Source of the DNA: Verrucomicrobiota bacterium
GTDB taxonomy: Bacteria > Verrucomicrobiota > Verrucomicrobiia > Opitutales > Opitutaceae
Direction: 5' to 3'
Length of the DNA stretch: 20,591 nt
NCBI GenBank assembly: GCA_030916665.1
Contig: JAUPWC010000461.1
Location: 1-20,591, forward strand
Of the stretch, positions 16,194 through 20,591 are shown piece after piece (within the stretch, counting starts at the first letter, position 1; the number at the start of each line of letters is the position of its first letter). Below the pieces are notes generated by a model. That model searched no databases. It was not told where the DNA came from and saw only the letters and a program-made list of their open reading frames with translations. The position numbers and the translations under genes were made by a program.

Positions 16194-18679
16194 GCGAAGC
16201 CTGGCAGGTCTATAAATTCGGCGGCACTTCGGTCGGTACACCCGGCCGGTTGCCGCGCGTCCTCGAGCTCATCGCCAGCGCCCCGAAACCGCTGGCGGTC
16301 GTGGTCTCCGCGCCCGGCGACACCACCGACTGGCTCATCCTCTGCGCGCGTTCCGCCGAGAGCGGCAACATCAGCCAGGCCCGCCGCGAACTCGGCCAGG
16401 CCAAGGAACTCGCCACGACGATCGCCCGCAATGTGCTCGGCGGTCCGGGCCAGAAAGGTTTCAAATACGATCTCGATGAAATCCTGACCCCGGTCGAGCG
16501 CCTGCTCTCGGGCATCGAGCTCACCCGCGAGTGTTCCCCGCGCACGCTCGACTCGATCATCTCGGTCGGCGAACGCATCTCGGTGGCGATCCTCTCCCGT
16601 GCGCTCACGGAGAAGGGCGTCAACGCCATCGCGGTGGACGCGCGCGACTTCGTCGTCACCGACGCCACGCACGGCGCCGCCACCGTGGACAAGGCCGGCA
16701 CCTCGGCCAAGTTCGCCGCCGTGCTCCCCGGCTGGAGCGGCACTGTGCCGATCATCACCGGTTTCATCGGCCGCACGCGCGACGGCCACACCACCACGCT
16801 CGGCCGCAACGGCTCCGACTACACGGCCACGCTCGTGGCCGGTCTGCTCAGGGCGAGCGCCGTCACGGTGTGGACCGACGTGCTTGGTGTGATGACCGCC
16901 GATCCCGCGCTCGTGCGCGAGGCCCAGCCCGTGGACCGGCTGTCCTACGACGAGGCGCTGGAGCTGGCGTATTTCGGCACCCGGATGTTCCACCCGCGCA
17001 CGATCATCCCTCTGCGCGAATGCGGCGCGGCGCTCGTCATCCGCAGCACGACGCAGCCCGAGGCCCCCGGCACGCGCATCGATGCGACCGGCAATCCCGA
17101 TCCCAACCGCCCGACCTGCGTGACCAGTCTCGAGCGTCTCGCGCTCATCGGCGTGCAGTCGCGCCGCACCGGACTGAGCAAGCCCGTCGGCGGCCGCATC
17201 CTCGCGGCGCTGGGGGAAGCGGGCGTGCGTGTCTGGATGACCACCGAGTCCACGCTCGGCCAGTCGTTCTCCGTCGTGATTCCCGAGAGCGACGAACAGA
17301 AGGCCAAGCAGAGCATCGGCGAGGCGCTCGCGCCCGAAATCCAGACCGGTGATCTGCGCATTGAACCGGTGCTTTCTCCGGTCACCATGGTGACCCTCGT
17401 CGGTGAAAACATGGGCCGGCGTCCGAATGTCGCGGGACGTTTCCTGAATTCCATCGGCTCGGCGGGCATCAACGTCCGCGCGCTCGCGCAGGGCGCCTCC
17501 GCCCGCAGCATTTCCGCCGTGGTGGATGCCGACCAGACCGCGACCGCCGTCCGCACCGTGCACGGCGCGTTCAACCTGTCGCACACCGAAATCAGCGTGT
17601 TGCTGCTCGGGCGCGGCGTGGTGGGCGGCTCGCTGCTCAAGCAGATCGACCAGCAGAACAAGCTGCTCGGCCGCGAACACGACGTGCAGATCCGGCTCGT
17701 GGGCGTCGGCTCCAGCGGCGGCGTCTTGTTCGACGAGCACGGTTTGTCCACCGACCGCGCGGTCGAGCTGCAGAAGACCGCACTCGAGGAAGGCAAGACC
17801 GTGAAGGATGTCATCTCCCTGCTCGGCAAACTCTCCAGCCTGCCGAATCCCGTGCTCGTGGACTGCTCGGCCGCGCCCGGCATGGAAAAGCTCTATCTCG
17901 CCGCGTTCGACCAGGGCGTGAACGTCGTCTCGGCCAACAAGCAGCCGCTGGCCCTGCCGCAGGTGCAGCGCGACGAGTTGCTCGGCCGCGCGCGCAAGCA
18001 CTACCGCGCCTATCACTACGAGACGACGGTCGGCGCCGCGTTGCCGGTCATCGAGACGCTCAAGAACCTCGTCCGCACCGGCGACCACGTCATCACGATC
18101 GAAGGCGCGTTCTCCGGCACGCTCGGTTTCCTGTGCGACCAGATCGCCAAGGGCACGCCGTTGTCCGTCGCCGTGCGCACCGCGCGCGAACTGGGTTACA
18201 CCGAGCCGCACCCACGCGACGACCTGTCCGGCCTCGACGTGGCCCGCAAGGCCGTGATCCTCGCCCGCGAACTCGGCCTGCGCGTCGATCTGACCGACGT
18301 GGAGCTCAAGCCCTTCGTGCCCGAATCCTATCTCAAGGAGAGCGACCCGGAGAAGTTCATGCAGTCGCTGACCAGCCTCGATGCCGACGTGACCACCCGC
18401 GTCACGGCCAGCAAAGGGCAGGGCAAGCTGCCGCGCTATCTCGCCCGCATCACACCCGGTGCTGCCGGCGCCAAGGTCACGGTTGGCCCCGTCGATGTGG
18501 ACAGCGCACACCCCGCCGCCGCCTTGCGCGGAGCCGAGGCGTTTGTGGCTTTCCACACCGAGCGCTACAAGGAATACCCGATGGTCGTCCGCGGTGCGGG
18601 CGCGGGTGGAGCGGTCACCGCTGCCGGCGTGCTCGCCGACATCCTCCGTCTCGCTCAGAACATCCGCGGGCGGGGGTGA
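16190..18679 (+). CDS. thrA: bifunctional aspartokinase/homoserine dehydrogenase
   Basis: This enzyme phosphorylates aspartate and later reduces aspartate semialdehyde to homoserine, the precursor of threonine, isoleucine and methionine. The 829-residue product is close to E. coli ThrA (820). The aspartokinase domain (~5-295) begins with YKFGGTSVG and includes RNGSDYTATLVA. An ACT regulatory region (~310-460) contains VTLVGENMG and GINVRALAQG. The homoserine dehydrogenase domain (~466-829) has the dinucleotide motif GRGVVG at 474-479, SANKQPLA, the YETTVGAALPVI segment and GYTEPHPRDDLSGLDVARK. The ACT region implies feedback by an end product, probably threonine as in the family. The start at 16190 has GGAGG ten bases upstream inside metX; the longer frame from 16133 is rejected because it overlaps metX more deeply and adds no family sequence. 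Confidence 0.96.
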   Translation: MSEAWQVYKFGGTSVGTPGRLPRVLELIASAPKPLAVVVSAPGDTTDWLILCARSAESGNISQARRELGQAKELATTIARNVLGGPGQKGFKYDLDEILTPVERLLSGIELTRECSPRTLDSIISVGERISVAILSRALTEKGVNAIAVDARDFVVTDATHGAATVDKAGTSAKFAAVLPGWSGTVPIITGFIGRTRDGHTTTLGRNGSDYTATLVAGLLRASAVTVWTDVLGVMTADPALVREAQPVDRLSYDEALELAYFGTRMFHPRTIIPLRECGAALVIRSTTQPEAPGTRIDATGNPDPNRPTCVTSLERLALIGVQSRRTGLSKPVGGRILAALGEAGVRVWMTTESTLGQSFSVVIPESDEQKAKQSIGEALAPEIQTGDLRIEPVLSPVTMVTLVGENMGRRPNVAGRFLNSIGSAGINVRALAQGASARSISAVVDADQTATAVRTVHGAFNLSHTEISVLLLGRGVVGGSLLKQIDQQNKLLGREHDVQIRLVGVGSSGGVLFDEHGLSTDRAVELQKTALEEGKTVKDVISLLGKLSSLPNPVLVDCSAAPGMEKLYLAAFDQGVNVVSANKQPLALPQVQRDELLGRARKHYRAYHYETTVGAALPVIETLKNLVRTGDHVITIEGAFSGTLGFLCDQIAKGTPLSVAVRTARELGYTEPHPRDDLSGLDVARKAVILARELGLRVDLTDVELKPFVPESYLKESDPEKFMQSLTSLDADVTTRVTASKGQGKLPRYLARITPGAAGAKVTVGPVDVDSAHPAAALRGAEAFVAFHTERYKEYPMVVRGAGAGGAVTAAGVLADILRLAQNIRGRG

Positions 18680-18749: not shown

Positions 18750-18778
18750 TTGACAGGATTTGTGCCGATACGCACGTT
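18750..18778 (+). promoter_or_regulatory. candidate promoter for the ilv leader
   Basis: A perfect consensus -35 TTGACA lies at 18750-18755. Seventeen nt later CACGTT (18773-18778) is a weak -10; it differs by one base from the TACGTT seen upstream of the oxidoreductase gene. Transcription would begin at about 18785, roughly 12 nt before the leader ORF. Read-through from thrA is the alternative source of leader transcript. Confidence 0.5.
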
Positions 18779-18796
18779 CAACTCCCTCTTCCCGTA

Positions 18797-18898
18797 ATGT
18801 TCAACGTCGTAGCCATTGCCCTTATTACCGTCGTTCTGGCCCTTGTTGCCGAGAACACAATAACCCATGGGCGGCTCGCCGAAGTCTCAAACTCCTAA
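18797..18898 (+). CDS. branched-chain amino acid leader peptide of the ilvD attenuator
   Basis: This is a 33-codon ORF. Residues 4-17 are VVAIALITVVLALV, in which 10 of 14 positions are Val, Ile or Leu, followed by a polar tail to the TAA at 18896. It has the size and composition of the enterobacterial ilv leader peptides (32 residues for ilvGMEDA). It lies directly upstream of an intrinsic terminator and then ilvD. The function would be as a sensor: ribosomes stall at the Val/Ile/Leu codons when charged tRNA is scarce. There is no Shine-Dalgarno, and the start would be close to the 5' end of the message if the promoter at 18750 is used. A longer in-frame version from 18686 exists, but it overlaps the promoter and lacks supporting features. 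An ordinary small membrane peptide is the main alternative reading. Confidence 0.75.
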   Translation: MFNVVAIALITVVLALVAENTITHGRLAEVSNS

Positions 18899-18930
18899 GA
18901 GAGAAAACAGAAAAAAGATGAAGCCGCCCA
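18868..18930 (+). promoter_or_regulatory. antiterminator pairing of the ilvD attenuator
   Basis: TGGGCGGCT (18868-18876, inside the leader ORF) is the exact reverse complement of AGCCGCCCA (18922-18930), which contains the 5' arm of the terminator. Forming this 9-bp helix would prevent termination. The segment lies about 21 nt past the last codon of the Val/Ile/Leu cluster, so a ribosome stalled there leaves it free, whereas a ribosome translating to the stop passes over it. It can also be sequestered locally (GGCG 18870-18873 with CGCC 18877-18880) or pair weakly with GTTGCC at 18845-18850. Confidence 0.7.
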
Positions 18931-18949
18931 CGAAAAGGGCGGCTTTTTT
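18921..18949 (+). terminator. intrinsic terminator before ilvD (attenuator)
   Basis: AAGCCGCCC (18921-18929) and GGGCGGCTT (18937-18945) form a perfect 9-bp stem with a 7-nt ACGAAAA loop, running into six T residues at 18944-18949. It is the only textbook rho-independent terminator seen in the window. It begins 22 nt after the leader stop codon and ends about 90 nt before ilvD. It could also end read-through transcripts from metX-thrA. Confidence 0.88.
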
Positions 18950-19037
18950 ATTCTCCAGCCCTTATGACGCAGACCCTTAAAACCCCAACCTCGCCCTCCC
19001 GGTAATGTTCCGGTAGCGTGGAATGACCATTTTCCCT

Positions 19038-20591
19038 ATGGATTCCGGCAAACGCCACAGCCACCACATCACAGAAGGCCCCCAGCGGGCACCTTCCCGC
19101 GCCATGCTTAAGGCAGTGGGGTTTAACGACGAGGACTTGAAAAAGCCCCTGATCGGCATCGCCAACACTTGGACCGAAATCGGGCCCTGCAATTACCACC
19201 TTCGCGCGCTGGCCGAGCATGTAAAAGCCGGCATCCGGGCCGCCGGTGGCACGCCGCTCGAGTTCAACACCGTCTCCATCTCCGACGGCATCACGATGGG
19301 CACCGAGGGCATGAAGACCTCGCTCATCTCCCGCGAGCTCATCGCCGACTCCATCGAGCTCGTCGTCCGCGGCAACTACCTCGACGGCCTCGTTTGCCTT
19401 TCCGCCTGCGACAAGACCAACCCCGGCGTGATGATGGCGCTCGCGCGTTGCGACATCCCCGGCCTTGCCCTCTACGGCGGCTCGATCAACCACGGCCACC
19501 ACAACGGCAAGGCCCTGACCGTGCAGGACGTGTTCGAGGCGGTGGGCGCCTATGCCGCGCACAAGATCGACGAGAAGGAATTCAATTCCGTTGAAAACTC
19601 CGCCTGCCCGACTGCCGGCGCCTGCGGCGGCCAGTTCACCGCCAACACCATGGCCACCATCATGGAGGCCATCGGCATTTCCCCGGTCGGTCTGAACGGC
19701 ATCCCCGCCGTGGACGAAGCCAAGAACAAGGCCGCGTTCCGTTGCGGCGAGATCGTCATGGATCTCGTGCGCGGCAACCTGAAGCCCTCGCAGATTTTCA
19801 CCCGCAAGGCCTTTGAGAACGCCATCGCGTCCGTCTCCGCTTCCGGCGGTTCGACCAACGCTGTGCTGCATCTCCTCGCGCTCGCGAAGGAGGCCGGCGT
19901 GTCGCTCACCATCGACGAGTTCGACGCGATCTGTGCCAAGACGCCGACCATCGCCACGCTCAAGCCCGGCGGTCTCTACACCGCGGTCGAGATGCACCAG
20001 GCCGGCGGCATCTCGCTGCTCCTGCGCCGGCTGCACGAGGGCAACTACCTGCACACCGACACGCTCACCGTCACCGGCCGCACGCTCGCCGACGAAGTGC
20101 GCAACGCGCCCGAGACGCCCGGCCAGCAGGTCATCCGCCCGACCAGCAAACCCTTCAAGCCCACCGGCGGTCTCATCATCCTCAAGGGCAACCTCGCCGA
20201 GGAAGGCTGCGTGCTCAAACTGGCGGGCACGACCATCAAGCACTTCAAGGGCCCGGCTCGTGTCTTCGACAACGAGGAAGACGCCATGGCCGCCGCCACC
20301 GCCGGCAAGATCAAGCCGGGCGACGTCGTGGTTATCCGTTACGAGGGCCCCAAGGGCGGCCCCGGCATGCGCGAGATGCTCGGTGTGACCGCCGCGCTCG
20401 CTGGCGCCGGCATGGTCGAGACGGTGGCGCTGCTCACCGACGGACGTTTCTCCGGCGCGACGCGCGGTTTCTCCATCGGCCACGTGGCCCCCGAGGCCTT
20501 CGTGGGTGGTCTCATCGCCTTTGTGAAGGAGGGCGACCAGATCGAGATCGATGTGCCGGCGCGCAAGCTGCAGGTCGCGATCGCTCCCGAC
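19038..20591 (+). CDS. ilvD: dihydroxy-acid dehydratase, 3' end beyond the window
   Basis: IlvD dehydrates 2,3-dihydroxy-isovalerate and 2,3-dihydroxy-3-methylvalerate to the keto acids for Val/Leu and Ile, using an Fe-S cluster in the cytoplasm. The frame stays open for 518 codons to the last base; the family is ~560 residues, so about 40 are missing. It shows [17 protein letters not shown] near the start and the three cluster Cys at C51 (IGPCNYH), C124 (SACDKTNP, with the adjacent K126) and C196 ([12 protein letters not shown]), plus [13 protein letters not shown] and [16 protein letters not shown]. The CxGG form around C196 resembles the short, [2Fe-2S]-type enzymes rather than E. coli IlvD; this is inference. 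An in-frame ATG at 19023 would add five residues; neither start has a clear Shine-Dalgarno. Expression is probably controlled by the attenuator upstream. Confidence 0.96.

Follow-up and report, generated by a model that had tools for sequence, protein, structure and literature searches.

Does the short gap between thrA and ilvD on this contig carry a leader-peptide attenuator, and what would it control? The window, meaning the whole stretch of DNA analysed (20,591 nt), is an entire contig (C29) that ends within ilvD. An Ile/Val/Leu attenuator in front of this gene had been proposed in a first-pass annotation. Judged from sequence comparison, the element is read here as a ribosome-mediated transcription attenuator controlling a branched-chain amino acid (BCAA) operon that starts with ilvD, with a probability of about 0.9. 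This reading was adopted because a BCAA-rich ORF is conserved, a segment within that ORF is complementary to one arm of the terminator, the intrinsic terminator covaries, and the leader codons are biased. It was adopted also because the leader persists without thrA, heads ilvB at a locus of another genus (L243), and has His and Phe/Tyr counterparts.

Layout of the leader region

The upstream neighbour thrA ends at 18679, and the leader elements sit between it and ilvD, all on the forward strand. A -35-like hexamer, TTGACA, was read from the sequence at 18750..18755; a promoter scan returned 0 full sigma-70 promoters, and no -10 element was recognisable. The hexamer is followed by a leader ORF of 33 codons plus TAA (18797..18898), MFNVVAIALITVVLALVAENTITHGRLAEVSNS, which lacks a Shine-Dalgarno sequence. 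Its codons 4-17 (18806..18847), of which 10 of 14 are Val, Ile or Leu, form the proposed stalling region, assigned from the sequence and from codon bias relative to ilvD. Further along the ORF lies segment 2 (TGGGCGGCT, 18868..18876), the putative antiterminator arm, assigned by complementarity, codon fixation and shuffling and being the exact complement of 18921-18929 with an offset of one base. The intrinsic terminator was read from the sequence, and its stem pairing is borne out in 32 listed loci (below). It consists of segment 3 (AAGCCGCCC, 18921..18929) as 5' arm and segment 4 (GGGCGGCTT) with the T-run (18937..18949) as 3' arm and tail, so that the hairpin at 18921-18945 reads AAGCCGCCC-ACGAAAA-GGGCGGCTT, with a perfect 9-bp stem and a T-run at 18944-18949.

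The ilvD gene (19038..20591, incomplete at the contig end) was identified by TIGR00110 above cut-off. Its frame is open from 19023, where an in-frame alternative start is found; 19038 is the likelier start because the alignments of 7 out of 10 Opitutaceae relatives begin at residue 6, and it would place the gene about 90 nt past the T-run. The parts listed in the first-pass annotation, namely TTGACA ahead of a 33-codon ORF with 10 Val/Ile/Leu in 14 codons, an exact in-ORF complement to the 5' arm of a perfect 9-bp terminator with a T6 tail, and ilvD some 90 nt beyond, were thus recovered, the last with the start at 19038.

Of the short ORFs in the window (218, both strands counted), 5 reach at least 7 I/L/V in 12 codons, and among these five the leader ORF alone has a terminator within reach; no other ORF attains a density of 10 in 14. 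Folding of the whole leader was by itself unimpressive (z = -1.85; 10 of 200 shuffles folded equally well).

Operon context

The first-pass annotation had described a lone ilvD, which is an artefact because the contig stops within this gene. In all 29 relatives whose sequence extends past ilvD, ilvB follows, and the order ilvD-ilvB-ilvN-ilvC-leuA-cimA-leuB was found in four longer stretches (L171, L172, L176 and L177). In this order the names ilvC and leuB come from NCBIfam models, ilvN was assigned by its place and length, and a second LeuA-like gene is labelled cimA. In the window's own genome, part of ilvC followed by leuA-cimA-leuB is found on contig C679. The inclusion of metX-thrA in the arrangement does not hold either: an upstream thrA was detected for 15 of the 29 relatives and at 0 of 11 loci of a second leader type, and the leader therefore travels with ilvD and not with thrA.

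Opitutaceae carry two very different ilvD/ilvB types: the window has the close type, to which the other is about 48% (ilvD) and 40-45% (ilvB) identical. Identity of the window's ilvD to that of Holophagaceae/Geothrix is higher (67-70%), and this closeness suggests that the operon was transferred.

Conservation of the leader ORF

Loci with ilvD of at least 80% identity were classed as close-type, and at least 32 were present in 252 Opitutaceae genomes, the window included and partial matches to ilvD in G136 and G043 not counted; the 32 listed loci are kin, and counts over them do not represent independent events. At all 32, a leader ORF, GGGCG inside the ORF and a terminator occur together, and the best 12 leader codons include 7 to 10 for I, L or V. 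Among these loci none was seen that keeps the terminator and loses the BCAA-rich ORF or the competing pairing, a pattern that the first-pass annotation had held would speak against attenuation, and its attenuator reading as a whole draws support from these loci.

Two leader types were distinguished, that of the window (20 loci) and a second (12 loci), example endings being VALIALITVVLALLATDPNTHGRLAKATSS and ALIIAVVILLTPSTGRLSHN. The hydrophobicity of the peptides would suffice for a membrane helix, and their amino acid sequence is conserved within each type, which would fit a functional single-pass membrane microprotein with an ordinary terminator behind it. Against this stands the codon usage. 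The Gly codon of segment 2 is GGG at 32 of 32 listed loci and the codon CGG is kept at 31 of 32. Over the whole leaders, ATT makes up 86% of Ile codons (15% in ilvD of the same loci), CTT 39% of Leu codons (8% in ilvD) and GGG 94% of Gly codons (10% in ilvD). Because the third positions of GGG CGG are fixed, and because GGG, ATT and CTT are rare in ilvD, the constraint appears to act on RNA and codons. The two types moreover have N-terminal parts of different length and sequence, and other pathways have leaders of the same layout with His or Phe/Tyr runs, so that a microprotein is considered very unlikely. Over the same listed loci the I/L/V fraction is 0.38 in the leaders and 0.22 in ilvD.

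A Shine-Dalgarno-like motif, searched for within 20 nt of the start, was found in 0 of the 32 listed leaders. At these loci TTGAC lies 39-51 nt 5' of the leader ATG, its presence being partly due to selection, as the nearest one upstream was chosen, and its spacing not. The spacing suggests that the 5' UTR is short, and we infer that the leader is initiated without a Shine-Dalgarno sequence and from such a short 5' UTR.

A TGTCATA box was found 20-30 nt 5' of TTGAC at 21 of the 32 listed loci (in 18 of these 21 at 20-23 nt), and the 17,256 nt of upstream sequence from these loci contain no other copy, as might be expected if control were exerted mainly by a DNA-binding protein at this box near TTGACA and the leader were of little weight. 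The box is, however, absent from the other 11 listed loci, the window among them, and control of this kind, for which we see even less likelihood than for a microprotein, would leave the leader unexplained; the box could act alongside attenuation.

Terminator and antiterminator pairing

Across the 32 listed sequences the terminator stem is 98.9% paired, with 2 pairs altered on both sides. Its covariation score was 0.238, against at most 0.157 for slid versions of the stem, one of which had 3 two-sided pairs versus 2 in the unshifted stem. The antiterminator helix is 96.4% paired over the same sequences; its core is invariant, and no two-sided change was found in it. The alignment of relatives proposed in the first-pass annotation thus yielded the conserved BCAA-rich ORFs and the covarying terminator stem that it had named as support, but not a covarying antiterminator arm. 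When the leaders were shuffled synonymously, the strength of the antiterminator was matched by 0 to 13 of 500 shuffles at 31 of 32 listed loci; at L083 it was weakly better than the shuffles, 48 of 500 reaching the same strength.

A protector hairpin (1:2), in which segment 2 is paired upstream before segment 3, was also considered. It was matched by at most 5 of 100 synonymous shuffles at 4 of the 32 listed loci, the window among them (1 of 100), and the loci as a whole do not support it.

A known Rfam element was rejected as a candidate, Release 15 giving 0 matches at the gathering score in the window and likewise none in the other leader loci tested. That a metabolite- or tRNA-binding riboswitch employs the same terminator is scarcely credible, for although the terminator does lie in the 5' leader of a biosynthetic operon, and papers report control of such operons elsewhere by ppGpp riboswitches and T-boxes, the best sub-threshold Rfam scores in the window are far lower than the gathering scores (e.g. 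Thr_leader, 19.8 versus 55 bits) and the conserved part is an ORF plus a hairpin.

Ribosome position and proposed mechanism

The position of the ribosome was modelled as a mask covering 14 nt from the start of the A-site codon, with equilibrium folding and with transcription assumed to begin 35 nt past the first base of TTGAC. In this model, stalls up to 15 nt 5' of segment 2 left the 2:3 pairing in place (mean 0.99), and stalls from 9 nt 5' of segment 2 onward nearly abolished it (0.08). At 32 of 32 listed loci the BCAA run falls within the permissive part and ends at the point from which a stalled ribosome would only just spare segment 2. With no ribosome and with segment 3 present, the model prefers the 2:3 antiterminator (mean 0.96), and efficient translation of the leader may be what permits termination. 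A ribosome on the stop codon masked segment 2 at none of the 20 loci with the window's leader type, against 11 of the 12 with the second. The preference for the antiterminator in the absence of a ribosome and the lack of masking in the window's type speak against a trp-like scheme.

Under the attenuator reading, scarcity of charged Val, Ile or Leu tRNA would stall the ribosome at codons 4-17 and leave segment 2 free; segments 2 and 3 would then pair, the terminator would be blocked and RNA polymerase would enter ilvD. With ample charged tRNAs the ribosome would pass over segment 2, segments 3 and 4 would pair, and transcription would stop near 18949.

Comparison with known systems

The ilv and trp attenuators of E. 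coli combine a leader peptide containing regulatory codons with mutually exclusive antiterminator and terminator structures. The Opitutaceae element resembles them in both respects and differs in that segment 2 lies inside the ORF, no Shine-Dalgarno sequence is present and a protector hairpin is not generally supported. In the open-licence literature, no relevant paper on leader peptides or attenuation in Verrucomicrobia, Opitutaceae or Acidobacteria was found, and to this extent the statement in the first-pass annotation that such an element was not known to be described for this lineage stands. A BCAA leader in front of ilvD is in itself already known, Staphylococcus aureus having a BCAA-rich leader peptide and terminator before an ilv-leu operon likewise headed by ilvD, as described in the parts of PMC5794164 drawn on here. 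According to the same parts, the S. aureus leader has a ribosome binding site, its proposed antiterminator pairs with the terminator poly-U, and CodY acts too (PMC5794164); the Opitutaceae leader, unlike it, has no Shine-Dalgarno sequence, and segment 2 within its ORF pairs with the 5' arm of the stem.

BCAA leaders have been described or predicted in Actinobacteria (PMC1262725, in part). Those of the Corynebacterium ilvB-II uORF and ilvBNC attenuator share with the present element a BCAA-rich uORF, a terminator and a competing antiterminator, and differ in sequence, in the ilvBNC operon and, as far as the excerpts used here go, in a model with an anti-antiterminator (PMC10272879; PMC11857589), which is not generally supported in the Opitutaceae loci. 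The ilvB-OMG motif, reported from various phyla, and the Leptospira ilvB motif also have uORFs rich in BCAA codons ahead of ilvB and likewise come from outside the classic lineages (PMC10272879). From the portion of that paper used here, ilvB-OMG may overlap in phyla with the present leaders, and related cases may have been seen earlier. The leader peptide without a Shine-Dalgarno sequence had been taken for an unusual variant; the sequence is indeed missing, but a leaderless attenuator ORF is known in S. meliloti trpL, the transcript of which begins at the ATG (PMC7298713, in part). The window leader is like trpL in having no Shine-Dalgarno sequence and unlike it in that a short 5' UTR is more likely. 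In the sections consulted of a 2010 survey, leader-peptide systems (the ermC leader aside) are stated to have been known only in Proteobacteria and Actinobacteria before the survey's own find in Firmicutes, and its predicted Acidobacteria attenuators are almost without assigned function (PMC2965389). The mechanism is already known; the lineage, the sequence family and the use in several pathways appear to be new.

Leaders for other pathways

More interesting than the single ilvD element is the set of attenuators that these genomes appear to carry. It is fairly probable that Lacunisphaera-type Opitutaceae and relatives run a suite of attenuators without Shine-Dalgarno sequences over at least three pathways (BCAA, DAHP synthase and histidine), and that the BCAA one has kept its place in front of an operon that was probably transferred, despite a change of first gene (ilvD or ilvB). 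If true, this would be the first leader-peptide attenuator set described in Verrucomicrobiota. A BCAA attenuator in this phylum, with its His and Phe/Tyr siblings and the Geothrix layout, would widen the range of this regulation, a repeated origin of leader-peptide attenuation would become testable, and many uncultured genomes would offer readable cases of amino acid control.

In the window's genus, 17 of 19 loci had a leader with at least 4 His before hisG and the other two had 3, against 0 of 62 off-target regions; the leader in the window's own genome (L307, G000:C437) is MKLHHHHHPV. Nothing in Rfam matched in the three His-leader loci searched. The hisG leaders (L301-L319) have a terminator, other examples being MILNHHHHHEA and MVLNHHHHHAC. 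Phe/Tyr leaders preceded DAHP synthase at 10 of the 14 loci scanned in this genus (L251-L264), with three more found by a looser scan and 0 of 67 off target. The three DAHP synthase products tested gave strong matches to DAHP synthase models, below the curated cut-offs, and the window's own genome yielded no DAHP synthase of this kind. Phe/Tyr leaders with a terminator before DAHP synthase were also seen at L234-L240, L242, L244, L246-L248 and L250, in several Opitutaceae genera, and several Phe/Tyr leaders have AGTCATAA or TATGACA at a place similar to that of the TGTCATA box. Trp leaders before trpE were found at 0 of 16 loci of the same genus by the combined scan, L292 being excluded from the set as its upstream sequence spans 97 nt; the noise of the W filter is considerable, since 3 of 32 ilvD regions pass it on the forward strand and 3 on the reverse.

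BCAA leaders at other loci

The combined scan recovered I/L/V leaders before ilvD at 32 of 32 listed loci, with 1 of 49 off target. A covariance model of the leader (R1) was run over the 252 Opitutaceae genomes and found all 32 listed ilvD leaders at 76 bits or more, together with at least 47 further matches at E <= 0.001, of which 20 were inspected; many of the remainder score weakly. The inspected matches comprised 13 Phe/Tyr leaders before DAHP synthase, 5 before 107-aa or cut-off proteins, L243, and one that looks spurious and was set aside (L249). The five (L231-L233, L241 and L245) are leader-like ORFs with terminators, e.g. MMSRLTWLPINDTTSKHVVVILFAPIAGRLSHT, the end of which resembles the ilv leader; the proteins that follow have 107 aa (one is cut off), and three that were tested gave a sub-threshold match to DUF6538.

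At L243 (G131, another genus) a BCAA leader, MNFVVVSLILGLVLVIIGTHDQLDGKEVRVTR, precedes ilvB, the product of which is 77.6% identical to that of the window-type operon, versus 40-45% for 28 other Opitutaceae. Its leader-terminator pairing is shifted and longer, with one mismatch, and 21 of 1000 shuffles were as good. The ilvB set was drawn from 36 genomes, 2 being of the close type; in the 28 others scanned, no leader was found before ilvB, one ORF passing the residue filter but having no terminator. At 12 loci of the other ilvD type (about 48% identity), scanned with the residue filter only, no leader was found and one unrelated ORF passed.

Outside the phylum, a BCAA leader with terminator was found before 6 of 69 ilvD relatives, with 0 hits on the 69 reverse strands and 1 in 345 shuffles. 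Among these six, the antiterminator pairing of Geothrix L013 and L015 beat synonymous shuffles (4 and 0 of 1000 reaching it), and at L039 and L040 the antiterminator match was no better than such shuffles (350 and 249 of 1000). The ilvD leaders of Geothrix (L013-L016) are BCAA-rich and end in ...VAIPAVLIISGEVGAS or similar, with a hairpin GGCCCCGC...GCGGGGCC and short T-tails. In 70 upstream regions of ilvB from other Verrucomicrobiota, a loose scan was noisy (9 forward, 6 reverse), and a strict scan gave 6 forward and 1 reverse at a threshold of 7 and 5 and 0 at thresholds of 8 and 9. Upstream of ilvB at L383 (G306), a tandem pair of BCAA-rich leader ORFs was seen, each with its own terminator.
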